From: Comamonas testosteroni
GTDB lineage: Bacteria > Pseudomonadota > Gammaproteobacteria > Burkholderiales > Burkholderiaceae_C
Assembly: GCF_030505195.1 (NCBI RefSeq)
Contig: NZ_CP129672.1
Coordinates: 2,638,501-2,702,500 of the forward strand
DNA: 64,000 nucleotides
Direction of reading: 5' to 3'
In this document: positions 291 through 63,455 of the stretch, piece after piece
How positions within the stretch are numbered: the first letter of the stretch is position 1
How the letters are laid out: every line of letters starts with the position of its first letter
Program-made: the position numbers and the translations under genes
The notes under the pieces: generated by a model
The model's database searches: none
Told to the model about the DNA's origin: nothing
What the model saw: only the letters and a program-made list of their open reading frames with translations

Positions 291-1523
291 ATGATTGCGT
301 CGCAGCGTTTAGGCTTGATGCCAATTTCCCCCGGAATCCGAGCTGTGATCGAGCGCAAAGAACTTCCCCTGCTGTTGACCGGCTTCATGGCCACCCTGAG
401 CGGCGTCGGCCTGGCGCGTTTTGCCTATACGGCGCTGATGCCGCAGATGGTGCATGCGGGCTGGTTCAGCGGCGAGCAGGTGGCTTATCTGGGCGCAGCC
501 AATCTGCTCGGTTATCTGATCGGGGCGCTGGTCGCCGCGCCGCTGGCCGAGCGCTGGGGCGCGCTGCGCGTGCTGGTGATCTGCTGGGTGGCCGTGATGC
601 TGAGCTTTGCCGGCTGCAGCCTGCCCCAGCCCATGGGCTTGTTCTTTGTCTGGCGGCTGATCTCGGGCATTGCCGGGGCCGCGCTGATGGTGCTGGGCCC
701 GTCGGTGGCCATGGCTGCAGCCGCGCCGCAGCGCCGTGCTGCGTTGGGTCCGCTGATGTTCTGCGGCATTGGCGTGGGTGCCTTGCTGGCCGCCACCCTG
801 GTGCCCATGTTTGCGCGCAGCAGCCTGAGCGCCGTCTGGTGGGCATTGACGGCGCTATGTGCGCTGGCGCTTTACAGCGGCTGGCATGCTGCGCGCCAGA
901 TCCCGCTGCATGCGCCGGTGGCGGTCCAGCCCACGGCGGTCGCAGCTTCCTGCACAACGCCGTGGAGCCTGGCGGTGATTCTGGTGCTGACTGCCTATGC
1001 CTGCGACGCCTTCGGCTTTGTGCCGCACACCGTGTTCTGGGTGGACTATCTGGATCGGGAGCTGCAGTTGGGCGGCGCCTATGCATCGACGCAATGGGCC
1101 TTCTTCGGGCTTGGCGCGATGGTCGGGCCGCTGTGTGCGGCCTACTGCGCTACGCGCTGGGGCTGGTGGGGTACGACCACGGGCGCCTACGCCCTCAAGG
1201 CCGTGGCCATCGGCCTGCCGCTGGTCTGGGCCGGTTTCGGCGGCCATGCGCTGTCGGGCTTTGTGGTGGGAGCGCTGTCACCGGGCATGGCGGCCATTAC
1301 CTCGGGCTATCTGATGCAGCTCATTGGACCCGGCCAGCACAAGAAAATGTGGGGCTATGCCACGGCTGCATTTGCGCTGTTGCAGGCCAGCTCCGGCTAT
1401 CTGATGGCATTTGTCTACGTCAGTACCGGCAGCTATCGCCAGCTGTTCGTGCTGGGCTGCGCGGCGCTGGGCCTGGGCGCGCTGCTGGTGGCCTCTAGCC
1501 GCCTGGCCCGCACCGCGCAATGA
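291..1523 (+). CDS. YbfB/YjiJ-family MFS transporter
   Basis: A 410-residue, strongly hydrophobic protein with about 12 membrane segments. The N-terminal block LLLTGFMATLSGVGLARFAY followed by LMPQMV is typical of the YbfB/YjiJ branch of the major facilitator superfamily, whose substrates are mostly unknown. It acts in the inner membrane. ATG 291 is used; TTG 285 and ATG 318 (with a weak AGG upstream) are alternatives, and the true start is uncertain because no strong ribosome site is visible. The divergent LysR gene probably controls it. The next gene, a nitronate monooxygenase homologue, follows 33 bp downstream on the same strand and may be co-transcribed. Confidence 0.8.
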   Translation: MIASQRLGLMPISPGIRAVIERKELPLLLTGFMATLSGVGLARFAYTALMPQMVHAGWFSGEQVAYLGAANLLGYLIGALVAAPLAERWGALRVLVICWVAVMLSFAGCSLPQPMGLFFVWRLISGIAGAALMVLGPSVAMAAAAPQRRAALGPLMFCGIGVGALLAATLVPMFARSSLSAVWWALTALCALALYSGWHAARQIPLHAPVAVQPTAVAASCTTPWSLAVILVLTAYACDAFGFVPHTVFWVDYLDRELQLGGAYASTQWAFFGLGAMVGPLCAAYCATRWGWWGTTTGAYALKAVAIGLPLVWAGFGGHALSGFVVGALSPGMAAITSGYLMQLIGPGQHKKMWGYATAAFALLQASSGYLMAFVYVSTGSYRQLFVLGCAALGLGALLVASSRLARTAQ

Positions 1524-6811: not shown

Positions 6812-6936
6812 AGGCCAGAGGCAGCGAGCAAGGGCCTTGGCGGCCCCGCCGCCCCGCGGCGAGGCTGTCGTCCCCCTCCGGCGAAGCGAGAGAGGACGCC
6901 CGGTCAGGGGGAAGGCGCGAAGCGACTCAGGGGGTG
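6812..6936 (-). repeat. 3'-end repeat, copy A (overlaps thiolase stop codon)
   Basis: On the minus strand this copy begins CACCCCCTGAGTCGCTTCGC and continues with CCTTCCCCCTGAC, a CTCTCTCGCTTCGCC segment, GGAGGGGGACGAC, and a GC-rich tail ending near TGCTCGCTGCCTCTGGCC. The TGA in CCCCCTGAG is the stop codon of the thiolase homologue (6927-6929). Orientation is the same, relative to the gene it follows, as in every other copy in the window. Confidence 0.8.
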
Positions 6937-8135
6937 AAGTTCCCCAGAACCGCCGTGGCCTGGCTGGACAGCGTGCCGCCATTGCCATGGACCACGGCCG
7001 TGCGGTGGCGTGCCAGTTGCCGCTGGCCGGCCTGACCGCGAAGCTGGCGCACGGCCTCGATCAGCAGGAACACGCCATACATGCCCGGGTGGACGCAGGA
7101 CAGACCGCCGCCATTGGTGTTCACGGCCAGGCGGCCGCCGGGGGCGATGGCACCGCCTTGCACAAAGGAGCCGCCCTCGCCTTTGCGGCAAAAGCCCAGG
7201 TCTTCCAGGAACAAGAGGGTGTTTATCGTGAAGGCGTCGTACAGCTGGGCCATGTCCATGTCGGCTGGCGTCAGCCCCGCCATGGCAAAGGCCTGCCGGC
7301 CGGATTGGGTGGCCGAGGTCACGGTCAGATCGGGCATGCAGGAGATCTGGCGGTTCCAGCAGGCCGTGGCACTGCCCAGGATGTAGACGGGGGGCTGTGG
7401 CAAATCCTTGGCTCGGTCCGCGCGGGTGAGCACGATGGCACCGGCACCGTCGGTGACCAGACAGCAGTCGCGCACGCCCAGGGGGCTGGAGACCATGCGC
7501 GCCTTCAGCACATCGTCGATGGTGAGCGGGTCGCGCATAAAGGCTTCGGGGTTGAGCTGGGCCCAGGCACGGGCTGCTACTGCCACCTCGGCCAGCTGCT
7601 CGCGCGTGGTGCCGTACTGGTGCATATGGCGCTGGGCGGCCAGCGCATAGGCAGAGGCCGGCAGCAGCGGCTCGTAAGGGTGTTCGTAGGGCTGAGGGTC
7701 CATGGTGCGCCGAGCGGCCACGATGTCCTTGCGGCCCGCGACACCGGAGCGCTGGGCGCTGCCGTAGCAGATCAGCACGGCTTTGCACTGCCCTGCTTCC
7801 AGCGCGCGCATGGCGGGCAGCAAATGGGCCACGAAGCTGCTGCCACCCAGCATGGTGCCGTCGATGTAGGTGGGGTTGATGCCCAGATGTTCGATCACCG
7901 GCATGGCCCACATGCTGGCGGTGACGCTGCAGGTGGCAAGGCCGTCGATGTCCTGCATGGACAGGCCGGCATCGGCCACTGCCGCGTGGGCAGCACGTAC
8001 CAGCAGCGTCATATCGTCCATGCCGGGGGATTCGCCGCAGCCATAGGTGGCAGCGCCGGCAATGGCTACTTTGCCGCGCAGGGCGCGATTCGCGGCTGCG
8101 GCATCCAGGCTGGATGAAGGCAGAGAAGCACTCAT
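6927..8135 (-). CDS. Thiolase-superfamily protein lacking the active-site Cys (SCP2/Ltp2 type)
   Basis: A 402-residue thiolase-fold protein of the sterol-carrier-protein-thiolase branch. It has LVTDGAGAIVLTRA, YDAFTINTLLFLEDLGFC, and NTNGGGLSCVHPGMYG near the C-terminus. At the position where SCP-type thiolases have the nucleophilic Cys (NNCSTGS-like), this protein reads MLGGSSFVAH, with Ser at 99 and 100. Relatives without Cys and paired with a DUF35 protein can be retro-aldolases, such as Ltp2 in steroid side-chain breakdown, rather than thiolases. The DUF35 gene is directly upstream with a four-base overlap. The stop codon lies inside a dispersed repeat. Confidence 0.8.
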   Translation of the reverse strand: MSASLPSSSLDAAAANRALRGKVAIAGAATYGCGESPGMDDMTLLVRAAHAAVADAGLSMQDIDGLATCSVTASMWAMPVIEHLGINPTYIDGTMLGGSSFVAHLLPAMRALEAGQCKAVLICYGSAQRSGVAGRKDIVAARRTMDPQPYEHPYEPLLPASAYALAAQRHMHQYGTTREQLAEVAVAARAWAQLNPEAFMRDPLTIDDVLKARMVSSPLGVRDCCLVTDGAGAIVLTRADRAKDLPQPPVYILGSATACWNRQISCMPDLTVTSATQSGRQAFAMAGLTPADMDMAQLYDAFTINTLLFLEDLGFCRKGEGGSFVQGGAIAPGGRLAVNTNGGGLSCVHPGMYGVFLLIEAVRQLRGQAGQRQLARHRTAVVHGNGGTLSSQATAVLGNFTP

Positions 8136-8607: not shown

Positions 8608-8700
8608 CACGGAATATGGCGCCGCTCCGGGAGTGCCGCGAAGCGGGCGAGCGCGCATGGCGCGAAAGCGACAGAAGCGCCTCAGGCATGCTGTTTTCCT
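8608..8700 (-). repeat. 3'-end repeat, diverged copy I
   Basis: Minus-strand sequence GCCTGAGGCGCTTCTGTCGC, then TTTCGCGCC and a CGCTTCGCGG segment, resembles the CCCCCTGAGGCGCTACGCGCC and CTCGCTTCGCGAG parts of the better copies. It lies about 33 bp after the stop of the Bug-protein gene, in the same relative orientation. This is a weaker match than the others. Confidence 0.45.
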
Positions 8701-15930: not shown

Positions 15931-16045
15931 CCAAGCCAGGGACACCGAGCAAGGGCCGCCCCGCAGCGAGGGTATCGTCTCCCTCCCGCGAAGCGAGAGA
16001 GGGCGCCGTGCACACGGGGGAAGGCGCGCAGCGACTCAGGGGGTG
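15931..16045 (-). repeat. 3'-end repeat, copy B
   Basis: Minus-strand order is CACCCCCTGAGTCGCTGCGC, CCTTCCCCC, CTCTCTCGCTTCGCGGGAGG, GAGACGATACCCTCGCTGCG, GGGCGGCCCTTGCTCGGTGT, CCCTGGCTTGG. It begins 7 bp after the stop codon of the MaoC-family gene. Confidence 0.85.
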
Positions 16046-16051
16046 ATCCAT

Positions 16052-16945
16052 TCAAGCGAGTTCGGCGTAGCCGTGGCTCAGCACGACCTTGTCGCGTTCG
16101 AGCACGCGGGCGCGCAACTGCAGCTGGCAGGGCTGGTCGGGCGTGTGCCAGATCTCGGTGACCAGGGTTTCGCCGGGATAGACGGGCGAGGTGAAGCGCA
16201 CATCCAGCGCCTTCAGGCGCGCGGGATTGCGGTCGCCGCATTGGCGCAGCACGGCATGGGCCACCAGGCCATAGCTGGCCAGGCCATGCAGAATGGGCCG
16301 CTCGAAGCCGGCCTTGCGTGCCACGGCCGGGTCGGCATGCAGCGGGTTGTAGTCGCCCATCAGGCGGTACAGCAGCGCGGCCTCGGGGCGTATGGCCTGG
16401 GTGTCGGTGAAGTCGGGCGCGCGGTCCTCCGGCGTGGGGCGCAGCGGCGCCAGGGGCGCGTCGCTGGGCTGGCCGCCGTCCAGCAGGCTGTAGCCGCCGT
16501 CGCCGCGCAGAAAGCTGACCTGCTGCACGGTGGCCAGCAGCTCGCCCGCGGCGGTCTCCAGGCGCCGCTCGGTGACCATGATGGCGCCCTTGCCTTCGCC
16601 CTTGTCCGTCAGGTGCGTGATGCGGTTGTGGCCCACCACGTCGGCGCTGGCCGGCAGGGGGTGGTGCAGCCGCATGCGCTGCTCGCCATGCAGCAGCTTC
16701 ACCCAGTCGATGCCGGTATCGGCCTCGCGCGCCCAGAAGCCCGGGTAGCCCAGCACCACGGCCTGCGAGGGCAGGGCGCGCAGCCCGCCCGGCGCCCCTT
16801 CGTAGAAAAAGGGCAGGGCCGCGTCCGACAGCGGATCGCTGCCCAGGCCCAGGCTCAATGCATAGAGCATGGTGTCGCGCTCGCCATAGTGCTGGCGCAC
16901 GGGCTCGAAGGGGCGCTGTTTCAGGTGCTGATAGCTGATGGCCAT
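16052..16945 (-). CDS. MaoC-family double-hotdog enoyl-CoA hydratase (MFE-2 type)
   Basis: A 297-residue protein of two hotdog domains, the layout of (R)-specific hydratase 2. The catalytic C-terminal domain has LLYRLMGDYNPLHADPAVAR (hydratase motif with D, N and H), then RPILHGLASYGLVAHAVL. The N-terminal domain includes FFYEGAPGGLRALPSQAVVL. The product would be a (3R)-hydroxyacyl-CoA, which fits the MFE-2-like SDR encoded just upstream. Repeats flank it on both sides (copies B and C). Confidence 0.88.
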   Translation of the reverse strand: MAISYQHLKQRPFEPVRQHYGERDTMLYALSLGLGSDPLSDAALPFFYEGAPGGLRALPSQAVVLGYPGFWAREADTGIDWVKLLHGEQRMRLHHPLPASADVVGHNRITHLTDKGEGKGAIMVTERRLETAAGELLATVQQVSFLRGDGGYSLLDGGQPSDAPLAPLRPTPEDRAPDFTDTQAIRPEAALLYRLMGDYNPLHADPAVARKAGFERPILHGLASYGLVAHAVLRQCGDRNPARLKALDVRFTSPVYPGETLVTEIWHTPDQPCQLQLRARVLERDKVVLSHGYAELA

Positions 16946-17002
16946 CACGGTTCCTCTCAGTGTTTGATTGCGCTGGCGCGCTTCAACCCTCGCAACTGGC
17001 GC

Positions 17003-17110
17003 GGCCGGACTCAGGGACACCGAGGAAGGGCCGCCCCGCACCGAGGGTGTCGCCCCCCTCCCTCGCGAAGCGAGTAGAGAGGGGGAAGGCGCGTAGCGCC
17101 TCAGGGGGTG
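17003..17110 (-). repeat. 3'-end repeat, copy C
   Basis: Minus-strand sequence begins ACACCCCCTGAGGCGCTACG and CGCCTTCCCCCTC, includes CTCGCTTCGCGAGGGAGGGG, and ends GGCCCTTCCTCGGTGTCCCT. It begins 5 bp after the SDR stop codon at 17115. Confidence 0.88.
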
Positions 17111-17114
17111 TCGT

Positions 17115-18032
17115 TCAAACAGGATCCCAGCTAAACACGTCGGCCGAGCGATCCATGGGTACAAACGAGGCCTTGAGTGCGGGCATGCCGTGCTCGGCAA
17201 TGAACTCGGGTGTCCAGCCTTCGCCGCGATGCACCGAGCGCAGCGGACGTGGCTGGCTCATCAGAAACAGCTCGTTGTTGCGCACGGCAAAGACCTGGGC
17301 GTTCACGTCTCTGGCCTGGTCGGACAGCAGATAGACCGCCAGCGGCGCGATCTTGTTGGGCGTCATCTGCTGGATCTTGGCCACACGCGCCTGCTGCTCG
17401 GGGGTATCGGTGGGAATGGAGCCGATCATGCGGCTCCAGGCAAAGGGCGCGATGCAGTTGGAGCGCACATTGAACTTGGCCATGTCCAACGCAATGGATT
17501 TGGACAGGGCGGTCAGGCCCAGCTTGGCAGCGCTGTAGTTCGCCTGGCCCAGGTTGCCGATCAGGCCGGAGGTGGAAGTCATGTGGACCAGGGCGCCGCT
17601 TTCCTGTTCCTTGAAGTGGTTGGCGGCGGCGCGGCTCATGAAGTAGCTGCCGTAGAGGTGAACCTTGATGACGGCGTCCCACTCCTCCAGGCTCATCTTG
17701 TGAAAGAAGCGGTCGCGCAGAATGCCGGCGTTGTTGACGACACCATCGATGCGGCCGAAGCTGTCCACCGCGCATTGCACAATGCGACTGGCACTGGCCG
17801 CTTCAGAGACGCTGTCGGTACTGGCAACGGCCTGGCCGCCTGCGGCCTTGATCTCGTCGACCACTTTCTGCGCCGGACCGGCGTCGGTGCCTTCGCCAGT
17901 GGTGGACGTGCCGATGTCGTTGACCACCACTCTGGCTCCCGACGCCGCCATGGCCAAGGCGATGTCTCGACCGATGCCGCCTCCGGCGCCGGTCACCACT
18001 ACGACCTTGTCTTGCATCATCTTCTGGTCCAT
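17115..18032 (-). CDS. SDR, (3R)-hydroxyacyl-CoA dehydrogenase-like
   Basis: A 305-residue short-chain dehydrogenase. The NAD(P) site is VVVTGAGGGIGRDIALAMAA, and VVVNDIGTSTTGEGTDAGPA is the extended loop typical of peroxisomal multifunctional enzyme type 2. NNAGILRDRFFHKMSLEEWD and the catalytic TSTSG...YSAAK are present. It would oxidise the (3R)-hydroxyacyl-CoA made by the MaoC hydratase encoded next. It is the first gene of the minus-strand run and diverges from the plus-strand operon at 18243. ATG 18032 places the fold at the normal start. Confidence 0.9.
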   Translation of the reverse strand: MDQKMMQDKVVVVTGAGGGIGRDIALAMAASGARVVVNDIGTSTTGEGTDAGPAQKVVDEIKAAGGQAVASTDSVSEAASASRIVQCAVDSFGRIDGVVNNAGILRDRFFHKMSLEEWDAVIKVHLYGSYFMSRAAANHFKEQESGALVHMTSTSGLIGNLGQANYSAAKLGLTALSKSIALDMAKFNVRSNCIAPFAWSRMIGSIPTDTPEQQARVAKIQQMTPNKIAPLAVYLLSDQARDVNAQVFAVRNNELFLMSQPRPLRSVHRGEGWTPEFIAEHGMPALKASFVPMDRSADVFSWDPV

Positions 18033-18242
18033 GGCTTGTCGTCCTTTGCTGTTGTCGTGAGAGATGAGCCCAGCATGCCGGCAAACCGGTGCGGACGCCA
18101 TTTGCCAATCCCGAGGGCGGACTTCGTCAGCGTGAAAGTCGCTGTTGCGCACCACGGGTTGTCACGCCCTTAGGCAGCGCTGAAGACATGCTTTCAAAAA
18201 CGCGGATTGCCTGCCGGCGGCGCTGCCTCGACCATGGCAGCC

Positions 18243-19278: not shown

Positions 19279-20448
19279 ATGATTGAACACACCAGCTCCA
19301 ATAACCACCACGAGATCCGCGACGCCATCCGTGCGCTGTGCGCCGAGTTTCCCGACGAGTATTTCCGCAAGATCGACGAGCAGCGCACCTACCCCGAAGC
19401 CTTCGTCAACGCGCTCACGCACGCAGGCTGGCTGGCCGCGCTGATTCCGCAGGAGTACGGCGGCAGCGGCCTGGGCCTGACCGAGGCCAGCGTGATCATG
19501 GAGGAGATCAACCGCTGCGGCGGCAACTCGGGCGCCTGCCACGGCCAGATGTACAACATGGGCACGCTGCTGCGCCATGGCTCGCAGGCGCAGAAGGAGA
19601 AATACCTGCCGCGCATCGCCTCGGGCGAATGGCGGCTGCAGTCCATGGGGGTCACGGAGCCCACCACGGGCACGGACACCACCAAGATCAAGACCAGCGC
19701 CGTGAAGAAGGACGGGCGCTATGTGATCAATGGCCAGAAGGTCTGGATCAGCCGCATCCAGCACAGCGACTTCATGATCCTGCTGGCGCGCACCACGCCG
19801 CTGGCCGAGGTGAAGAAAAAGAGCGAGGGCATGTCCATCTTCATGGTGGACCTGGCCGAGGCACAGAAGAGCGGCCTGACCGTGCGCCCCATCCCCAACA
19901 TGGTCAACCACGAGACCAACGAGCTGTTCTTCGAGAACCTGGAAATCCCCGAGGAGAACCTGATCGGCGAGGAAGGCAAGGGCTTCAAGTACATCCTCGA
20001 CGGCCTGAACGCCGAGCGCACGCTGATTGCGGCCGAGTGCATTGGCGACGGCTACTGGTTCCTGGACCGCGTGACCAACTATGTGCGCGACCGCAACGTG
20101 TTCGGCCGCCCCATCGGCCAGAACCAGGGCGTGCAGTTCCCGATCGCCGATGCTTTCATTGAGGTCGAGGCCGCCAATCTGATGCGCTGGAAGGCCTGCG
20201 AACTGTTCGACGCGAACCAGGCCATGGGCGCCCAGGCCAATATGGCCAAGTATCTTGCCGCCAAGGCCAGCTGGGAGGCGGCCAATGCCTGCATCCAGTT
20301 CCACGGAGGCTTCGGCTTTGCCTGCGAGTACGACGTGGAGCGCAAGTTCCGCGAGACCCGCCTTTATCAGGTGGCGCCGATCTCCACCAATCTGATCTAT
20401 TCCTATGTGGCCGAGCACATCCTCGGGCTGCCCCGTTCGTTTTGACAT
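19279..20448 (+). CDS. Acyl-CoA dehydrogenase with IVD-like catalytic Glu position
   Basis: A 388-residue acyl-CoA dehydrogenase. SMGVTEPTTGTDTTKIKTSA at about 122-141 and WISRIQ match the flavin region; FHGGFGFACEYDVER at 341-355 is the dimer-interface block. The usual catalytic Glu in the YEG motif is absent: the sequence is LYQVAPISTN, with Gln364. Instead Glu246 in GLNAERTLIA matches the position used by isovaleryl-CoA dehydrogenase. This points to a branched or dicarboxylic short-chain substrate. It follows the hydratase gene by about 60 bp and precedes a class III CoA-transferase gene. Repeat copy D follows the stop. Confidence 0.88.
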
Positions 20449-20453
20449 GAAGT

Positions 20454-20548
20454 ACCCCCTGAGTCGCTACGCGCCTTCCCCCAAAGGGGGACGACACCCT
20501 CGGGGCGGGGCGGCCCTTCCTCGGTGTCCCTGGCCTTGGGCCGCGCCA
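20454..20548 (+). repeat. 3'-end repeat, copy D
   Basis: Plus-strand sequence begins ACCCCCTGAGTCGCTACGCG and CCTTCCCCC, then AAAGGGGGACGACACCCTCG, GGGCGGGGCGGCCCTTCCTC, GGTGTCCCTGGCC. It lacks the CTCGCTTCGCGAG hairpin seen in longer copies. It begins about 6 bp after the acyl-CoA dehydrogenase stop. Confidence 0.85.
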
Positions 20549-39475: not shown

Positions 39476-39600
39476 AGCCCAAGGCGATGGACACCGAGGA
39501 AGGGCCGCCCCGTACCGAGGGTGTCGTCCCCCTCCCTTGCGAAGCAAGTAGAGAGGCGCCGTGCAACGAGGGGGAAGCGGCGCAAGCCGCTCAGGGGGTG
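39476..39600 (-). repeat. 3'-end repeat, copy E
   Basis: Minus-strand sequence begins CACCCCCTGAGCGGCTTGCG, then CCGCTTCCCCCTCG, an inserted CGGCGCCTCTCTACTTGCTT segment, GGGAGGGGGACGACACCCTC, and GGCCCTTCCTCGGTGTCCAT. It begins 7 bp after the Bug-protein stop at 39607. Confidence 0.85.
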
Positions 39601-39606
39601 CTTTAT

Positions 39607-40608
39607 TTACTCAGCCTTTATTCCAGCAGACTTGATCACCTTGGCCCACTTGCTCACTTCGGCCTTCTGATAATCGGCCAGTTCGACGGTGCTCATGTTC
39701 GACGACAGCATGCCGAAGTTCTTGAGGCGGGCCTGGACTTCGGGGGTGGCGACGATCTTCAGGATTTCGGCATGCAGGCGGTCCACGATGGGCTTGGGCG
39801 TGCCTGCAGGGGCGAAAACGGCCTGCCAGGAGCCCATGTCGAAACCCTTCTCGCCGGCTTCCGCAATCGTGGGTACATCGGGCAGCGATTCCAGGCGCTT
39901 GGAGCTGCTCACGGCGATGGGGCGCAGCTTGCCGGACTGGATGTGCGGGCCGACGACCAAGGCAGTGTCGAACATCATGTCCACCTGTCCTCCCATGACA
40001 TCCTGCACGGCGGGGCCGCTGCCCTTGTAGGGCACATGGGTGAACTTCACGCCGCTCTGGTAGGCCAGCAGTTCCAGCGCCATGTGGTTGGAGGTGCCGT
40101 TGCCCGGGGAGGCAGAGGTCAGACCGCCCGACGAGGCCTTGGCCTTGCTGCCGGCCAGTACGTCGGCCAGAGTCTTGTAGGGGCTGGAGGCGGGCACCAC
40201 CAGCACCAGAGGGCCGGAGCCGAGCATGGCGACGGGCGTGAAGGACTTGATCGGGTCGTAGTCCAGCTTGGAGTACAGGCTGACATTGATGGCGTGCGAG
40301 CTGATGGTGCCGCCCAGAATGGTGTAGCCGTCGGCCGGGGCGCGTGCCGCCAGCGCCGAGCCCACGCTGCCGCCGGCGCCGCCCTTGTTCTCGATGACCA
40401 CGGGCGTGCCCAGGGCCTTGCTCAGCGGCTGCGCAATCACGCGTGCCAGGGTGTCGGTATTGCCGCCGGGGGGGAACGGCACCAGATAGGTGATGGGCTT
40501 GCCAGTGGGCCAGTTGCCTTGTGCCAGTGCGGGTGCGGCGACAAGGGATGCGCCCAGCAGCAGGGAGCTGGCGGCAAGGATGGATTGAAGCAGGGTGCGG
40601 CGTTGCAT
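39607..40608 (-). CDS. Bug-family TTT solute-binding protein (aldarate cluster)
   Basis: A 333-residue periplasmic protein. Signal MQRRTLLQSILAASSLLLGA ends near PALAQG. Blocks are ITYLVPFPPGGNTDTLARVI, VIENKGGAGGSVGSALAARA, FTHVPYKGSGPAVQDVMGGQ and DVPTIAEAGEKGF. It follows the glucarate-dehydratase-like gene on the same strand with about 117 bp between, and precedes garD, so an aldarate or related sugar acid is the likely ligand. No TctA/TctB genes are present. Confidence 0.88.
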   Translation of the reverse strand: MQRRTLLQSILAASSLLLGASLVAAPALAQGNWPTGKPITYLVPFPPGGNTDTLARVIAQPLSKALGTPVVIENKGGAGGSVGSALAARAPADGYTILGGTISSHAINVSLYSKLDYDPIKSFTPVAMLGSGPLVLVVPASSPYKTLADVLAGSKAKASSGGLTSASPGNGTSNHMALELLAYQSGVKFTHVPYKGSGPAVQDVMGGQVDMMFDTALVVGPHIQSGKLRPIAVSSSKRLESLPDVPTIAEAGEKGFDMGSWQAVFAPAGTPKPIVDRLHAEILKIVATPEVQARLKNFGMLSSNMSTVELADYQKAEVSKWAKVIKSAGIKAE

Positions 40609-45211: not shown

Positions 45212-46171
45212 ATGAAAAAAATACTGATCACGCTGGGCGCCACCCTGGCCCTGGCCGCCCAGGCGGCCGGCAACTTTCCCGACAAGCCCGTCAACATCAT
45301 CGTGCCGTTCCCGGCTGGTGGCTCCACCGACACCGTGGCGCGTGCCCTGGCTCTGAGCATGGGCGAGCAACTGGGCAAGCCCTTTGTCGTGGAAAACCGC
45401 CCTGGCGCCACGGGCACCATCGGAGCGGGCGCCGTCAAGCGTGCAGCGGCCGATGGCTACACCTTGCTGGTGGCCTCGCTGGGCCCTTTCGTGGTGACCC
45501 CTCATATGGTGAAGAACGTGCCCTATGACGCCGGCAAGGATTTCGACTACATCACCGTTCCCGTGCAGGCGCCCAATGTGCTCGTTGCCAGCCCGACGCA
45601 AAAGGCTCGCAGCGTGAGCGAGGTGATTGCCGCGCTCAAGGCCAATCCCGGCAAGATCAGTTTTGCAAGCTCCGGCAATGGTTCCTCGGATCATCTTTCG
45701 GCCGAGCTGTTCTGGCAGCAAACGGGTACCGAAGCCGTGCATGTGCCCTACAAGGGCGGAGCACCGGCAATCACCGATCTGCTGGGCGGTCAGGTGGATT
45801 TCTCCTTCCAGAACGTCAACGCCGTGCTGTCCCATCTGCGCAGCGGCAAGCTGCGTGCCATTGCCGTGACCGGTAGCCAGCGTTCACCTGTGCTGCCCGA
45901 TGTGCCCACACTGGCCGAGGCCGGTGTCAAAGGGGCCGAGGTCTATTCGTGGCAAGGCATGGCAGCTCCCAAGGGCCTGCCGGCCGATGTCAAGGCCAGA
46001 CTGGCCAAGGCCGCCATTGCCGCCCTGCAGCAGCCCGATATCCGCAAGCGCTTTGTGGATCAGGGGCTGGAAATCGTGGGCAACACGCCCGAGGAATTCA
46101 CGCGCTTCCAGGCCCAGGAGAACGAGCGCTGGAAGCAGTTGATCCAGACCAGAAAAATCACGGCGGATTGA
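45212..46171 (+). CDS. Bug-family TTT solute-binding protein (aldarate operon)
   Basis: A 319-residue periplasmic protein. The short signal MKKILITLGATLALAAQAAG is followed by VNIIVPFPAGGSTDTVARAL, VENRPGATGTIGAGAVKRAA, FASSGNGSSDHLSAELFWQQ, VHVPYKGGAPAITDLLGGQV and DVPTLAEAGVKGAE. AGGAGAC lies 7 bp before the ATG. It is the second Bug gene of this operon and the third of the cluster. Repeat copy G lies just past its stop. Confidence 0.9.
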   Translation: MKKILITLGATLALAAQAAGNFPDKPVNIIVPFPAGGSTDTVARALALSMGEQLGKPFVVENRPGATGTIGAGAVKRAAADGYTLLVASLGPFVVTPHMVKNVPYDAGKDFDYITVPVQAPNVLVASPTQKARSVSEVIAALKANPGKISFASSGNGSSDHLSAELFWQQTGTEAVHVPYKGGAPAITDLLGGQVDFSFQNVNAVLSHLRSGKLRAIAVTGSQRSPVLPDVPTLAEAGVKGAEVYSWQGMAAPKGLPADVKARLAKAAIAALQQPDIRKRFVDQGLEIVGNTPEEFTRFQAQENERWKQLIQTRKITAD

Positions 46172-46255
46172 CATGCCGCACCGCCTGCGTCGCTTTGCCC
46201 CTTCGCCCTTCCTGGCTGCGCCGGAGCCGGGCGGGGCGGCCCGTGCGCGGTGCCC
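46172..46255 (+). repeat. 3'-end repeat, diverged copy G
   Basis: The plus strand has GCGTCGCTTTGCCCCTTCGC, CCTTCCTGGC, and GGGCGGGGCGGCCCGTGCGC ending GGTGCCC. It is a degraded form of the CGCTACGCGCCTTCCCCC...GGGGCGGCCCTT...GGTGTCCC layout and again begins right after a stop codon. Confidence 0.5.
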
Positions 46256-47387: not shown

Positions 47388-47435
47388 TCGCCCTGTGATC
47401 CCCTTTTTCCTCCGCGTCTGTTGAAGAGCCTTCCT

Positions 47436-48773
47436 ATGTCCACTACCCCGACCATCACCGCCATCGAAGTCATTCCCGTCGCCGGCCGCGACGGCATGCT
47501 CATGAACCTCAGTGGTGCCCACGCGCCCTATTTCACCCGCAACATCGCGCTGGTGCACGACAGCGCGGGCCACATGGGGGTGGGCGAGGTGCCGGGCGGC
47601 GAAGGCATTCGCCAGGCGCTGGAGGACAGCAAGCAGGTGTTGATCGGCCGCTCCATCGGCCAGCATCTGCAGCTGCTGCAAGAGGTGCAGAAATCCCTCG
47701 AAGGCCGTGACACCGGTGGCCGTGGCCTGCAGACCTTTGATCTGCGCATCGGCGTGCACGCCGTGACCGCCATCGAATCCGCCCTGCTGGACCTGATGGG
47801 CCAGCACCTGGGTGTGCCCGTGGCCGCCCTGCTGGGCGAAGGCCAGCAGCGCGACCGCGTGGAAATGCTGGGGTACCTGTTCTTCGTGGGCCCCAGTGAC
47901 AAGACCGGCATGGACTACGTCAAGGCCGGCGAAGACACGCTGGGCACGGACGACTGGACCCAGGTGCGCCACATGACGGCCATGACGCCCGAGACCATCG
48001 TGCGCCAGGCCGAAGCCGCCTACGCGCGCTACGGTTTCAACGACTTCAAGCTCAAGGGGGGCGTGCTGGCCGGCGAGCAGGAAGTGGAGGCCGTCACCGC
48101 GCTGGCCAAGCGCTTCCCCGACGCGCGCGTCACCCTGGACCCCAACGGTGGCTGGCTGCTCAAGGACGCCATACGCCTGATGCGTGACATGCGCGGTGTG
48201 CTGGCCTATGCCGAAGACCCCTGCGGCGCCGAAGGCGGCTTCTCGGGCCGCGAAGTCATGGCTGAATTCCGCCGCGCCACCGGCCTGCCCACGGCCACCA
48301 ACATGGTTGCCACCGACTGGCGCCAGATGGTGCACGCGCTGTCGCTGCAGTCTGTGGACATCCCTCTGGCCGACCCGCATTTCTGGACCATGGCCGGCTC
48401 GGTGCGCGTGGGCCAGACCTGCCGCGATTGGGGCCTGACCTGGGGATCGCACTCCAACAACCACTTCGACATCTCGCTGGCCATGTTCACCCACGTGGCT
48501 GCCGCCGTGCCCGGCAAGGTCACGGCCATCGACACGCACTGGATCTGGCAGGACGGCCAGTACCTCACGCAACAACCCCTGCAGATCAAGGGAGGCTTCG
48601 TTGAAGTGCCAAAGACTCCCGGCCTGGGCGTGACCGTGGACCGTGCCGCGCTGCAGCGCGCCAACGCCCTGTACATGGAGCACGGCCTGGGCGCGCGTGA
48701 CGACGCCATTGCCATGCAGCACCTGATCCCCGGCTGGAAGTTCGACAACAAGCGCCCTTGCATGGTCCGGTAG
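47436..48773 (+). CDS. gudD: Glucarate dehydratase
   Basis: A 445-residue enolase-superfamily protein that aligns to E. coli GudD residue for residue at the active site: Lys205-Leu-Lys207 (FKLKGG), Asp235 (LDPNGGW), Glu260/Glu266 region ([11 protein letters not shown]), Asn289 (ATNMVAT), Asp313 (LADPHFW) and His339 (GSHSNNHFD). It dehydrates D-glucarate (and L-idarate) to 5-dehydro-4-deoxyglucarate. It ends [16 protein letters not shown], typical of true GudD. ATG 47436 gives the family start. Repeat copy F follows the stop by 5 bp. Confidence 0.95.
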
Positions 48774-48777
48774 CGCT

Positions 48778-48899
48778 CCCCCTGAGGCGCTACGCGCCTT
48801 CCCCCTCTCTACTCGCTTCGCGAGGGAGGGGGGCATACGGGCAGCCGGCGACACCCTCGGTGCGGGACGGCCCTTGCTCGGTGTCCCTGGCCTGAGCCA
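48778..48899 (+). repeat. 3'-end repeat, copy F (best full-length copy)
   Basis: The plus strand reads CCCCCTGAGGCGCTACGCGC, CTTCCCCCTCTCTACTCGCT, TCGCGAGGGAGGGGGGCATA, CGGGCAGCCGGCGACACCCT, CGGTGCGGGACGGCCCTTGC, TCGGTGTCCCTGGCCTGAGC. GGCGC-TAC-GCGCC and CTCGC-TT-CGCGAG are small hairpins, and CCCCCTCTC pairs with GAGGGAGGGGG to form a longer stem. It begins 5 bp after the gudD stop. Confidence 0.9.
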
Positions 48900-48988
48900 C
48901 GCCGGTGACAAGCGCCATCCCCTGACCGCCACGCCGCTGCGCTTCTCACACTGCCGCCGATCCCCCTATTTTTCTTACGGAGTACCCC

Positions 48989-50437
48989 ATGTCCCGCTAC
49001 GACAACCTCATCAACGGCCAATGGACGGTCGCCACCACCTACAGTACCAACACCAACCCCAGCGACCTGTCCGATGTGATCGGTGAGTATGCCCAGGGCG
49101 GTGCGTCCGACGTGCAGGCCGCCGTGGCCGCCGCCGCTGCTGCGTTCCCGTCCTGGTCCACCTCGGGCATCCAGGCGCGCTTCGACGCCCTGGACAAGAT
49201 AGGCACGGAGATCCTGGCGCGCAAGGCCGAGCTCGGCGAGCTGCTGGCCCGCGAAGAAGGCAAGACCCTGCCCGAAGCCATTGGCGAAGTCGGCCGCGCC
49301 GGCCAGATCTTCAAGTTCTTTGCCGGCGAATGCCTGCGCCTCACGGGCGAGACCGTACCCTCGGTGCGCCCCGGCATCGGCGTGGAGATCACGCGCGAGC
49401 CGATGGGCGTGGTCGGTCTGATCACGCCCTGGAACTTCCCCATCGCCATTCCCGCCTGGAAGATCGCCCCGGCCCTGGCCTTCGGTAACTGCGTGGTGCT
49501 CAAACCCGCCGATCTGGTGCCCGGCAGCGCCTGGGCCCTGGCCGACATCATCCACCGCTCGGGCCTCCCCGCCGGCGTCTTCAACCTGGTCATGGGCTCG
49601 GGCCGCGTCATCGGCGAAGCCCTGGTGAACCATGCCGATGTGGCAGCCATCAGCTTCACGGGCTCGGTGGGCGTGGGCCGCGGCATCGCGGCAGCCTGCG
49701 TGGCTTCGGGCAAGAAGGTGCAGCTGGAAATGGGCGGCAAGAACCCCCAGATCGTGCTGGACGACGCCGACCTGGAGCAGGCCGTAGAGCTGTCGGCGCA
49801 AAGCGGCTTCTACTCTACGGGCCAGCGCTGCACGGCATCGAGCCGCCTGATCGTCACTGACAAGATCTACCCGGCCTTCATCGAAGCCCTGCAGGCGCGC
49901 ATGGCGCGCATCAAGGTTGGCGATGCACGCGCTGCGGGCACCGACATGGGCCCCGTGGTCAGCCAGGCCCAGCTGGAGCAGGACCTGGGCTACGTGGAAA
50001 TCGCCAAGGCCGAAGGCGCGCGTCTGGCGGCCGGCGGCAGCCGCGTCGCCTGCCACACGGGCAGCGGCAAGCAGGGCTACTACATGGCGCCCACGCTGTT
50101 TGTGGACACCGAAGCGGGCATGCGCATCAACCGCGAGGAAGTCTTCGGCCCCGTGGCCAGCGTGATCCGCGTCAAGGACTACGACGAAGCCCTGGCCGTG
50201 TCCAACGACACGCCGTTTGGCCTGTCGGCCGGCATTGCCACCACCAGCCTCAAGTACGCCACGCACTTCAAGCGCCACAGTCAGGCCGGCATGGTCATGG
50301 TCAACTTGCCCACGGCGGGGGTGGACTACCACGTGCCGTTTGGCGGACGCAAGGGATCGAGCTACGGCCCGCGCGAGCAGGGCCGCTATGCCCAGGAGTT
50401 CTACACCACGGTGAAGACGGCCTATACGCTGGCGTGA
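48989..50437 (+). CDS. 2-oxoglutarate semialdehyde (2,5-dioxovalerate) dehydrogenase
   Basis: A 482-residue aldehyde dehydrogenase. Catalytic Cys281 lies in GFYSTGQRCTASSR, Glu247 in LEMGGKN, Asn149 in TPWNFPIA and Lys172 in VLKPAD. The FYSTGQRCTA context is typical of 2-oxoglutarate semialdehyde dehydrogenases of sugar-acid pathways. It oxidises the KdgD product to 2-oxoglutarate, the last step of the route encoded here. RBS-like ACGGAG lies upstream of the ATG. A copy of its 3' end, broken by a stop codon, is found at 53533-53814. Confidence 0.92.
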   Translation: MSRYDNLINGQWTVATTYSTNTNPSDLSDVIGEYAQGGASDVQAAVAAAAAAFPSWSTSGIQARFDALDKIGTEILARKAELGELLAREEGKTLPEAIGEVGRAGQIFKFFAGECLRLTGETVPSVRPGIGVEITREPMGVVGLITPWNFPIAIPAWKIAPALAFGNCVVLKPADLVPGSAWALADIIHRSGLPAGVFNLVMGSGRVIGEALVNHADVAAISFTGSVGVGRGIAAACVASGKKVQLEMGGKNPQIVLDDADLEQAVELSAQSGFYSTGQRCTASSRLIVTDKIYPAFIEALQARMARIKVGDARAAGTDMGPVVSQAQLEQDLGYVEIAKAEGARLAAGGSRVACHTGSGKQGYYMAPTLFVDTEAGMRINREEVFGPVASVIRVKDYDEALAVSNDTPFGLSAGIATTSLKYATHFKRHSQAGMVMVNLPTAGVDYHVPFGGRKGSSYGPREQGRYAQEFYTTVKTAYTLA

Positions 50438-50571
50438 TGCTTGGGGCTGTTCAAGCAAGTTGCAAAGCTTGAGTGGCCCATTTTTCAGAAGAGGAGCGAG
50501 CATGCCCGGGCCGCGCCGGCCCTGCTGCGAAAGCTGCTACGCTGCGGCCCAGGTTTTCGCTCTTCTCTTCC

Positions 50572-53345: not shown

Positions 53346-53381
53346 GAGCGGCGATTGCCGGAGCCAGTCCCCGAGCGCGGC

Positions 53382-53543
53382 TCAGAAAAACAGTGTCCGC
53401 ACCCAGGGCGCGGCCAGCACGTTCACGGCACCGGCAATCATCATCACCAGCGATGCCATCACGGCCTGCACCTCGCCGGCCTGGCGCGCCCGGGCCACGC
53501 CGCTGCCATGGGCGGCTCCGCCCCAGCTGGCGCCCGTGGCCAG
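53382..53543 (-). pseudogene. 3' fragment of lrgB (duplicate)
   Basis: This stretch copies the last 162 bp of the intact lrgB-type gene at 54548-54709, stop codon included, with only a few differences near its inner end (GGGCGGCTCCGCCCC against GGGCAGCTCCACCCC). It breaks off at CCCGTGGCCAGC, where aldehyde dehydrogenase sequence begins. Confidence 0.88.
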
Positions 53544-53814
53544 CGTGATCCGCGTCAAGGACTACGAAGAAGCCCTGGCCAACGACACTCCGTTCGGCCT
53601 GTCGGCCGGCATTGCCACCACCAGCCTCAAGCACGCCACGCACTTCAAGCGCCACAGCCAGGCCGGCATGGTCATGGTCAACCTGCTCACGGCGGGCGTG
53701 GACTATCACGTGCCGTTTGGCGGTCGCAAGTGATCGAGCTACGGCCCGCGCGAGCAGGGCCGGTATGCCCAGGAGTTCTACACCACGGTGAAGACGGCCT
53801 ATACGCTGGCGTGA
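53533..53814 (+). pseudogene. 3' fragment of the aldehyde dehydrogenase gene (duplicate)
   Basis: This copies 50150-50437 of the 2-oxoglutarate semialdehyde dehydrogenase gene (SVIRVKDYEEALANDTPFGL onward). It has lost a 6-bp GTGTCC and has a G-to-T change that makes TGA after PFGGRK (53731-53733). The flank to about 53860 also matches the DNA after the intact gene (TTCAAGCAAGCTGCAAAGCT against TTCAAGCAAGTTGCAAAGCT). It has no start codon or catalytic Cys and cannot make an active enzyme. Confidence 0.9.
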
Positions 53815-53874
53815 TGATTGGGGTTGTTCAAGCAAGCTGCAAAGCTTGAACGGCCCACTTTCCTCTAGAACTTG

Positions 53875-54497: not shown

Positions 54498-54547
54498 GGG
54501 CTGCGCTTGCCGGAGCCAGTCCCTGAGCGTAGGTAGCGCAGGGCCGG

Positions 54548-55243
54548 TCAGAAAAACAGTGTCCGCACCCAGGGCGCGGCCAGCACGTTCACGGCACCGG
54601 CAATCATCATCACCAGCGATGCCATCACGGCCTGCACCTCGCCGGCCTGGCGCGCCCGGGCCACGCCGCTGCCATGGGCAGCTCCACCCCAGCTGGCGCC
54701 CGTGGCCAGCTTGCTGCGGATGCGGGGCAGCACACGCAGCACGGTCTCGCCCAGCAGCATGGCACTGACGCCGGTCAGCAGAACGAACAGGGCCGCCAGA
54801 TCGGTGGGGCCGCCCAGCACTTTCTCGGCCTCGATTGCAAACGGTGTCGTGATGCTGCGCACGGCCAGGCCTTTTTGCAGCGCCTCGGAAAGGCCGAACA
54901 TATCGGCAAACGCAATGGTGGTGGATATGGAGACCAGGCTGGCCACGACCACGCCGGTGGCTATCGACATCCAGTGCTTGCGCAGCAGCTTGCGGTTCTC
55001 GTACAGAGGCAGTGCAAATGCCACCGTAGTGGGGCCCAGCAGCCAGACCAGCCAGTGGGTCTGGGCAATGTACTGCGGGTAGCTGACATGGGTCAGCAGC
55101 GACAGGCCGATCAGCACCATGGGGGTGGCGACTATGGGCATCAGCAACGGGTGGGGATGCTTGCGATACAGACGCTTGTTGACCCAGTAACAGGCCACGG
55201 TGGCCAGCAGCGACAGCAGGCCGATGACTTCATTCGACAGCAT
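54548..55243 (-). CDS. LrgB/CidB-family membrane protein
   Basis: A 231-residue protein with six or seven membrane segments. It has KHPHPLLMPIVATPMVLIGL, VWLLGPTTVAFALPLYENRK and AVRSITTPFAIEAEKVLGG, the core LrgB/YohK pattern. With the LrgA-type protein encoded 3 bp upstream it forms a holin-like pair tied in various bacteria to murein turnover or export of pyruvate or similar acids. The last 54 codons exist as a second copy at 53382-53543. Confidence 0.88.
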   Translation of the reverse strand: MLSNEVIGLLSLLATVACYWVNKRLYRKHPHPLLMPIVATPMVLIGLSLLTHVSYPQYIAQTHWLVWLLGPTTVAFALPLYENRKLLRKHWMSIATGVVVASLVSISTTIAFADMFGLSEALQKGLAVRSITTPFAIEAEKVLGGPTDLAALFVLLTGVSAMLLGETVLRVLPRIRSKLATGASWGGAAHGSGVARARQAGEVQAVMASLVMMIAGAVNVLAAPWVRTLFF

Positions 55244-61881: not shown

Positions 61882-63300
<1,419 letters not shown>

Positions 63301-63310
63301 AGTGGAGTGA

Positions 63311-63455
63311 TTTCCCTTGAGGCGCTCTGCGCCTTTCCCCTGGCCGGGCGCCCCTGGCCGGGCGCCCCTGTCCTGCGTTGCCATGCGGGAGGGGCGACAC
63401 CTTCGCCGGGCTTCCCCGCCGCGAGGCGGCTCCTGCTCTGTGCCCTGGCTTGTAG
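63311..63455 (+). repeat. 3'-end repeat, diverged copy H
   Basis: The plus strand starts TTCCCTTGAGGCGCTCTGCG, then CCTTTCCCCTGGCC, a direct duplication of GCCGGGCGCCCCTG, GGAGGGGCGACACCTTCGCC, and CTGCTCTGTGCCCTGGCTTG. It follows the order of copies C and F and begins about 10 bp after the pntB stop. Confidence 0.65.

Follow-up and report, generated by a model that had tools for sequence, protein, structure and literature searches.

The window analysed here is a 64-kb stretch (G000:C1:2638501-2702500) of a genome of 6.08 Mb (G000). At position 48778 of its forward strand lies a copy of a repeat of approximately 100 bp, which starts 4 nt after the TAG stop codon (48771..48773) of the upstream ORF 47421..48773 on the same strand. 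Read along the forward strand, this copy starts with CCCCCTGAG and hairpin H1. Hairpin H2, which opens with a second C5 run, comes next, and a copy-specific insert separates it from hairpin H3. The conserved 5′ head CCCCCTGAG occupies 48778..48786, its C run being unpaired in the three-hairpin model, and at least eight of its nine letters are kept in 140 of the 150 copies listed for the host genome. Both H1 (GAGGCGC-TAC-GCGCCTT, 48784..48800) and H2 (CCCCCTC...GAGGGGGG, 48801..48833) are given by the model alignment and by DNA folding. The insert separating H2 from H3 (48834..48849) is placed by the model alignment, as is H3 with its inner helices (GACACC...GGTGTC, 48850..48885), a region paired differently when this copy is folded as DNA at minimum energy. 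A 3′ tail with the consensus ..TGGGCCGCGCCAGTTTT (48886..48911) is weakly conserved in this copy. The short hairpins quoted in the initial annotation are present in the element.

The window also contains two pairs of direct repeats, 50195-50484 / 53572-53861 and 53374-53552 / 54540-54718, with 93% and 96% identity respectively. The first pair starts in the 3′ end of ORF 48989-50437 and looks like a partial duplication, while a 94% similar copy of the start of this ORF is found at G000:C1:3727218.

Copies within the window

A covariance model (R1) was built from 17 genomic copies, one of which is inside the window (17009), and its matches in the window comprise six strong ones (53 to 101 bits) and two weak ones. 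On the forward strand the strong matches are 48775-48892, which is the copy described above with a same-strand stop codon 4 nt before it, and 20452-20535, a copy with a short H2 situated 9 nt after the stop codon of ORF 19279..20445(+). Those on the reverse strand are 39483-39601 (8 nt after the stop codon of ORF 39607..40608(-)), 17009-17111 (6 nt after that of ORF 17115..18155(-), and the only strong window copy in the R1 training set), 15934-16045 (8 nt after that of ORF 16052..17200(-), the R1 match covering 15934-16024 of the copy) and 6813-6937. The last is positioned at -8 nt, with the TGA at 6927-6929 within CCCCCTGAG being the stop codon of ORF 6927..8135(-).

Nine copies had been listed for the window in the initial annotation. 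Six are these strong matches, and the two that it called decayed resemble real remnants, with elements present at the syntenic sites of the congener G146. One of them (46172..46255, forward strand) lies directly after ORF 45212..46171(+) and has no R1 match in the window, the syntenic G146 copy scoring 103 bits. The other (63310..63444, forward strand) lies approximately 12 nt after the stop codon of ORF 61882..63300(+), with an E-value of 0.0055 in the window and a syntenic G146 site that was scored as present by script. The ninth, a weak copy at 8608-8700(-), gave an R1 E-value of 0.82 and no syntenic pair in G146 and is not supported as a copy.

Copy number and placement in the genome

Across the host genome, all 150 scored candidates matched R1, 149 of them at E < 0.001, giving a copy number of at least 149. 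A degenerate 28-mer pattern of the head, allowing up to three mismatches, matched 63 times in forward and 58 times in reverse orientation with no match to its reversed control, while a further search of 790 kb yielded 167 matches at E-values up to 1e-4. The search for lone 3′ halves returned 21 matches, none of them away from listed copies.

Stop-codon distances were taken from a purpose-made gene caller. By these, 136 of the 150 listed copies begin at a same-strand stop codon (-8..14 nt), with 123 at 0-14 nt, one sharing a single base with the stop codon and 12 ending the gene with the element's own TGA (CCCCCTGAG); the background is that 3.8% of non-coding strand-positions fall 0-14 nt after a same-strand stop codon. 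Copies in sense with the gene behind them number 144 of 150, and the reverse placement, a 3′ end at most 14 nt from an opposite-strand stop codon, was seen in one of the 150. These genome-wide counts run against random orientation or a lack of enrichment at stop codons, the outcomes which the initial annotation had set against its own proposal. Its statement that the repeat always sits directly after a stop codon in one orientation stands for the 136 copies, with “always” being slightly too strong for the other 14, namely two copies at 20 and 24 nt, six further copies behind a stop-adjacent one and six which break the rule. Each of these six is situated upstream of a gene on the other strand and lacks a convincing gene on its own. 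The genes there include what we take to be argJ and rpsT, and no tRNA genes were found as hidden upstream genes at these loci.

From H3 to the next same-strand start codon the median distance is 80 nt (115 copies), and the module therefore separates neighbouring genes. Three consecutive copies follow a single stop codon at G000:C1:2902164-2902610(-) and 3772517-3773035(-), the former having a single, internally deleted form as its counterpart in G146. Another intergenic repeat, richer in AT and containing stretches of TAGCTGCT and AGCGC, occurs in eight of the 150 element tails and in G146 sequence syntenic to G000:2349039.

Hairpin structure and covariation

The model of the element has three hairpins with 28 pairs, and their covariation is solid. 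With two basal H1 pairs left out of the helix counts, 95.2% of cells pair among the 150 copies of the host genome compared with 83.6% when shuffled, with 376 double changes compared with 100.5. The figures for a set of 61 copies taken from Delftia and other genera are 98.3% and 83.2%, and those for an overlapping set of 70 copies from other genera 98.3% and 82.7%; double changes range from 216 to 376 across the sets. The model structure was derived from the first alignment (A2), which had itself not been fitted to it, and alignments A3-A5 were then fitted to that structure. H3 retains its fold in distant genera despite a different sequence.

Single-sided helix changes on the sense strand gave G-U versus A-C counts of 39 vs. 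73, 12 vs. 6 and 11 vs. 9. G-U is not consistently favoured over A-C, so the counts give no demonstration of selection at the level of the sense RNA. The same covariation would arise from hairpins used as single-stranded DNA, or from one arm being repaired from the other, and the helices may be kept at the DNA level. When sense copies were folded on their own as RNA, the three hairpins formed in four of six, and in the remaining two the 3′ part was paired in another way. Energies were modestly below those of shuffled sequences (z from -0.9 to -3.7), and folding was also seen for the antisense strand of one copy. DNA folding produced H1 and H2 in four of four copies and H3 in one of the four. 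The model predicts that, where an element stands 0-14 nt after its stop codon, stable pairing in H1 begins approximately 8-22 nt behind that codon.

The second C run varies with the G run (p = 3e-10). The first is conserved with no joint variation with the G run (p = 0.31), and a switch between these two was rejected on that value. A conserved run of this kind would also suit a protein-binding DNA site at gene ends, relieving supercoiling behind transcribed genes, for which the gyrase- or IHF-binding BIMEs of E. coli are the model. The chromosomal distribution speaks for it as well, with the 150 listed copies crowding towards dnaA (2,414,048) in numbers of 55, 43, 21, 22 and 9 in five equal distance bins. 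A supercoiling site, however, needs neither proximity to a stop codon within 14 nt nor a single orientation, and this explanation is considered improbable. The copy-poor contig ends were also considered as the origin, which was ruled out by the position of dnaA together with the skew change.

Relation to transcription terminators

The initial annotation doubted that the repeat is a plain intrinsic terminator, and the counts bear this out. Using our own finder (a GC hairpin followed by a T run), terminator-like sites were identified inside five of 138 elements, and still downstream of the element in 12 of 23 convergent cases, compared with 62 of 163 genes without an element and 3 of 23 in shuffles; elements also stand in operon junctions. 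Intrinsic termination as the main role was rejected on the same site counts. A broader version, in which the element is a terminator or attenuator, either intrinsic without a T run or Rho-dependent, could call on the strong hairpins behind stop codons and on those copies that lie at convergent gene ends. We rate it as quite improbable given the scarcity of sites inside elements, the ordinary sites that follow in convergent cases, the next gene being on the same strand after 121 of 150 copies (486 of 672 overall) and the unsupported switch between the two C runs. A function as a 3′-end stabiliser or RNase block would fit the position and the predicted structure.

Occurrence in related genomes

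In the congener G146 the placement rule holds for 53 of 60 copies on 1.2 Mb of contiguous sequence around the dnaA end, a region selected as a whole because it is syntenic with copy-rich stretches of G000. On named contigs (mostly Comamonas, Delftia and Acidovorax), retrieved by a pattern including the CCCCCTGAG head, it holds for 57 of 58 copies, two of 60 matches having been left out as opposite-strand echoes of listed copies. For other genera of the host's family the counts are 29 of 30 (the 30 matches on L141-L168 out of 61, the rest being judged among the named contigs) and 20 of 21 (L321-L340), where the single miss (L327 1501) has by eye a TAA 12 nt before the element at which the gene caller ended no gene. 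On contig L198, two convergent genes each have an element directly behind the stop codon (669-766(+) and 883-964(-)). Two elements with the usual placement were also found on a contig labelled Pantoea sp. 18069 (L184 4078-4146(+), 5139-5236(-)), the label or assembly of which is probably wrong.

The spread of the element is patchy. R1 matched 21 of 120 sampled genomes of the host's family and four of 150 genomes drawn from its order, all four in the same family, while a broader model (R2) matched 108 of 349 genomes and 56 of 141 genera, among which single weak matches may be chance.

At the 48778 junction the locus extends to the upstream gene in 21 congeners. An element directly follows the stop codon in 8 of these, with interior modules that differ in each, and in three others (G125, G128 and G127) the same two genes stand 36, 43 and 70 nt apart with no element between them. 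Comparison of G000 with G146 gave 51 paired junctions (10 of 61 sites being without a pair), at 39 of which the element was scored by script as present in G146. The other 12, read with 2478949 and 2503765 left out, include five that read as empty in G146, two with the element present but diverged in one genome and three that miss tandem extras. One G000 element stands where the G146 genes overlap by ATGA. In the reverse comparison, made with 59 of the 60 G146 copies of which 11 had no pair, two G146 elements, one of them degenerate, occupy sites that are empty in G000. The intact one closes the gene with a TGA of its own, after the same number of codons as the TAG in G000. At orthologous sites with flanks of approximately 95% identity the element interiors differ, modules being swapped.

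Among 69 copies in other genera, 14 stand behind genes with a G000 counterpart that itself belongs to the 138 upstream genes bearing an element. These 14 copies belong to 10 different genes, four of the copies standing behind what is presumably trpA, and 27 of the 69 match any of the 606 G000 genes compared.

Mobility

Presence and absence between congeners together with module swapping suggest that the element is mobile, a feature which the initial annotation did not consider. No signal of target duplication was detected in 69 copies (a mean shared word of 4.65 compared with 4.62 for controls) and terminal inverted repeats are absent, the ends CCCCCTGAG and GCGCCAGTTTT not being inverted repeats of one another; a MITE with target duplication was rejected on the lack of signal. 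Phage records with a match to one copy numbered zero and plasmid records two, so carriage by phages or plasmids is not a main vehicle.

Around Y1 transposase-like genes, no element (E up to 0.01) was identified within approximately 1.5 kb at 12 distinct loci, eight of which are in element-bearing genomes. The Y1 protein is present in 114 of the 120 family genomes, compared with the 21 that have the element. A RAYT as linked mobiliser was rejected, as neither flanking by two inverted element copies nor co-occurrence was found, and a RAYT may act in trans. A match in so many of the family genomes suggests a domesticated protein. In the host genome a gene of this type lies at G000:C1:1821361-1822140(-) (L169), next to a gene which we assume to be gltB-like.

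The main rival to the role proposed below is that the element is selfish and has no function in mRNA. Its insertion machinery would then favour the ends of genes in a single orientation, or insertions placed or oriented differently would be lost, and the hairpins would serve single-stranded-DNA transposition. Much of the above speaks in its favour, including the presence and absence between congeners, the patchy spread (in R1 and R2 counts alike), the swapped modules, the tandem copies, the covariation without G-U preference, and the lack of a target duplication signal, which single-strand transposition predicts. We nevertheless consider it unlikely, if a serious contender. No enzyme was found, the Y1 gene being near universal with or without the element and having none nearby at the loci examined; the sharp 14-nt limit is not explained by survival alone; and the copies in other genera behind the same genes as in G000 suggest long retention or preferred sites.

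Possible role

The reading favoured here, although still tentatively, is that of a REP-like mobile repeat of approximately 100 bp which, once in mRNA, would act as a structural barrier behind the stop codon. Its observed part consists of position, orientation, covariation, family spread, junctions that are empty in relatives and the occasional supply of a stop codon. When transcribed, the hairpins would come to lie directly in front of a ribosome that is terminating, in the space between adjacent co-transcribed genes. There they could block 3′-5′ exonucleases and/or slow termination, and would thereby uncouple expression of the upstream gene from that of the next. Copies would spread as non-autonomous mobile DNA by means of some enzyme, and recombination between copies would overwrite elements. 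Speaking for a barrier are the stop-codon counts in the host genome, the congener and other genera, the rarity of the reverse placement, the paired helices, the predicted distance of H1 from the stop codon, the junctions lacking an element in relatives, the terminator-like sites downstream of elements and the copies in other genera behind the same genes as in G000, with a precedent in E. coli. Against it, the swapped interiors at orthologous sites and some decayed copies are unlike a strictly required regulator. The lack of G-U preference, the modest folding energies, the other fold of the 3′ part in two of six copies, the folding of the antisense strand and the six copies of 150 that break the rule also count against it.

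A further and distinctly unlikely scenario is a mobile element that homes to sites of translation termination in the sense direction, guided by the terminating ribosome, the nascent transcript or the stop-codon context. The stop codon carried in CCCCCTGAG would terminate the reading frame into which the element inserts, and closely packed operon junctions would become insulated.

With roughly 150 sites per genome the element provides a natural experiment in which the same structured module stands at a near-fixed distance behind many stop codons, some orthologous sites being empty in close relatives. The effect of post-stop RNA structure on bacterial mRNAs and operons is thereby directly testable, and one may ask by what route a DNA element reaches the ends of genes in a single orientation.

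Comparison with known repeats

We know of no strict stop-codon anchoring for ERIC, NEMIS, BOX, RUP, bcr1 or SMAG, the last being a further short structured repeat of this kind. The element is about three times longer than a single REP and, to our knowledge, unrelated in sequence to that of E. coli. It resembles REPs generally as a high-copy extragenic palindromic repeat (at least 149 copies, three hairpins). The likeness to ERIC, NEMIS, BOX, RUP and bcr1, as listed in an excerpt of PMC3110155, is that these are short structured repeats, some of which are part of transcripts.

For E. coli, the REPs given as stop-proximal to within 15 nt number 260 of 496 (Liang et al. 2015, as cited in PMC12306157) and 446 of 4,072 (PMC12306157). 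Such REPs are reported to affect both mRNA and the ribosomes that have reached the stop codon (Liang et al. 2015, via PMC12306157). The element shares with these a palindromic repeat close behind stop codons, with 136 of 150 within 15 nt. Unlike the E. coli REPs as so described, of which only part are stop-close, it combines this proportion with one orientation and a three-hairpin unit able to supply the stop codon. REP/RAYT systems, as described in the excerpt of PMC2817692, are similar in being non-coding hairpin repeats with more than 100 copies which look mobile and are mostly extragenic; in contrast to them, no RAYT gene is flanked by the element at the loci checked.

BRE, from excerpted parts of PMC3110155, is the nearest description when reported features are compared. 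It is a betaproteobacterial repeat of approximately 90 bp, GC-rich, usually intergenic, with tandem copies and signs of mobility, found in Bordetella, Delftia, Acidovorax and Polaromonas; the size, GC-richness, intergenic location, occasional tandem copies and occurrence in Delftia and Acidovorax are shared with our element. A Delftia genome has 13 copies, some BREs lie inside coding sequences, and the excerpt states no stop-codon rule or mechanism (PMC3110155). Within the open-access literature searched, the full name of BRE was found in no paper besides PMC3110155, and no title or abstract opening among the search results was seen to describe a stop-codon rule of the present type. The strict rule of stop codon and orientation is new relative to the descriptions of E. 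coli REPs and BRE.

According to the same excerpt, BRE lies within a transcribed small-RNA region in Bordetella (PMC3110155). This observation, and the presence of a structured element behind many genes, would be in keeping with precursors of 3′-UTR-derived small RNAs or with a landing site for an RNA-binding regulator. Such a role is judged very unlikely, as no Rfam family matched at its gathering score in the 64-kb window and interiors swap freely between orthologues. In Table 3 of PMC3110155, as excerpted, none of 13 BRE loci lies between divergent genes, which agrees with a 3′-end rule.
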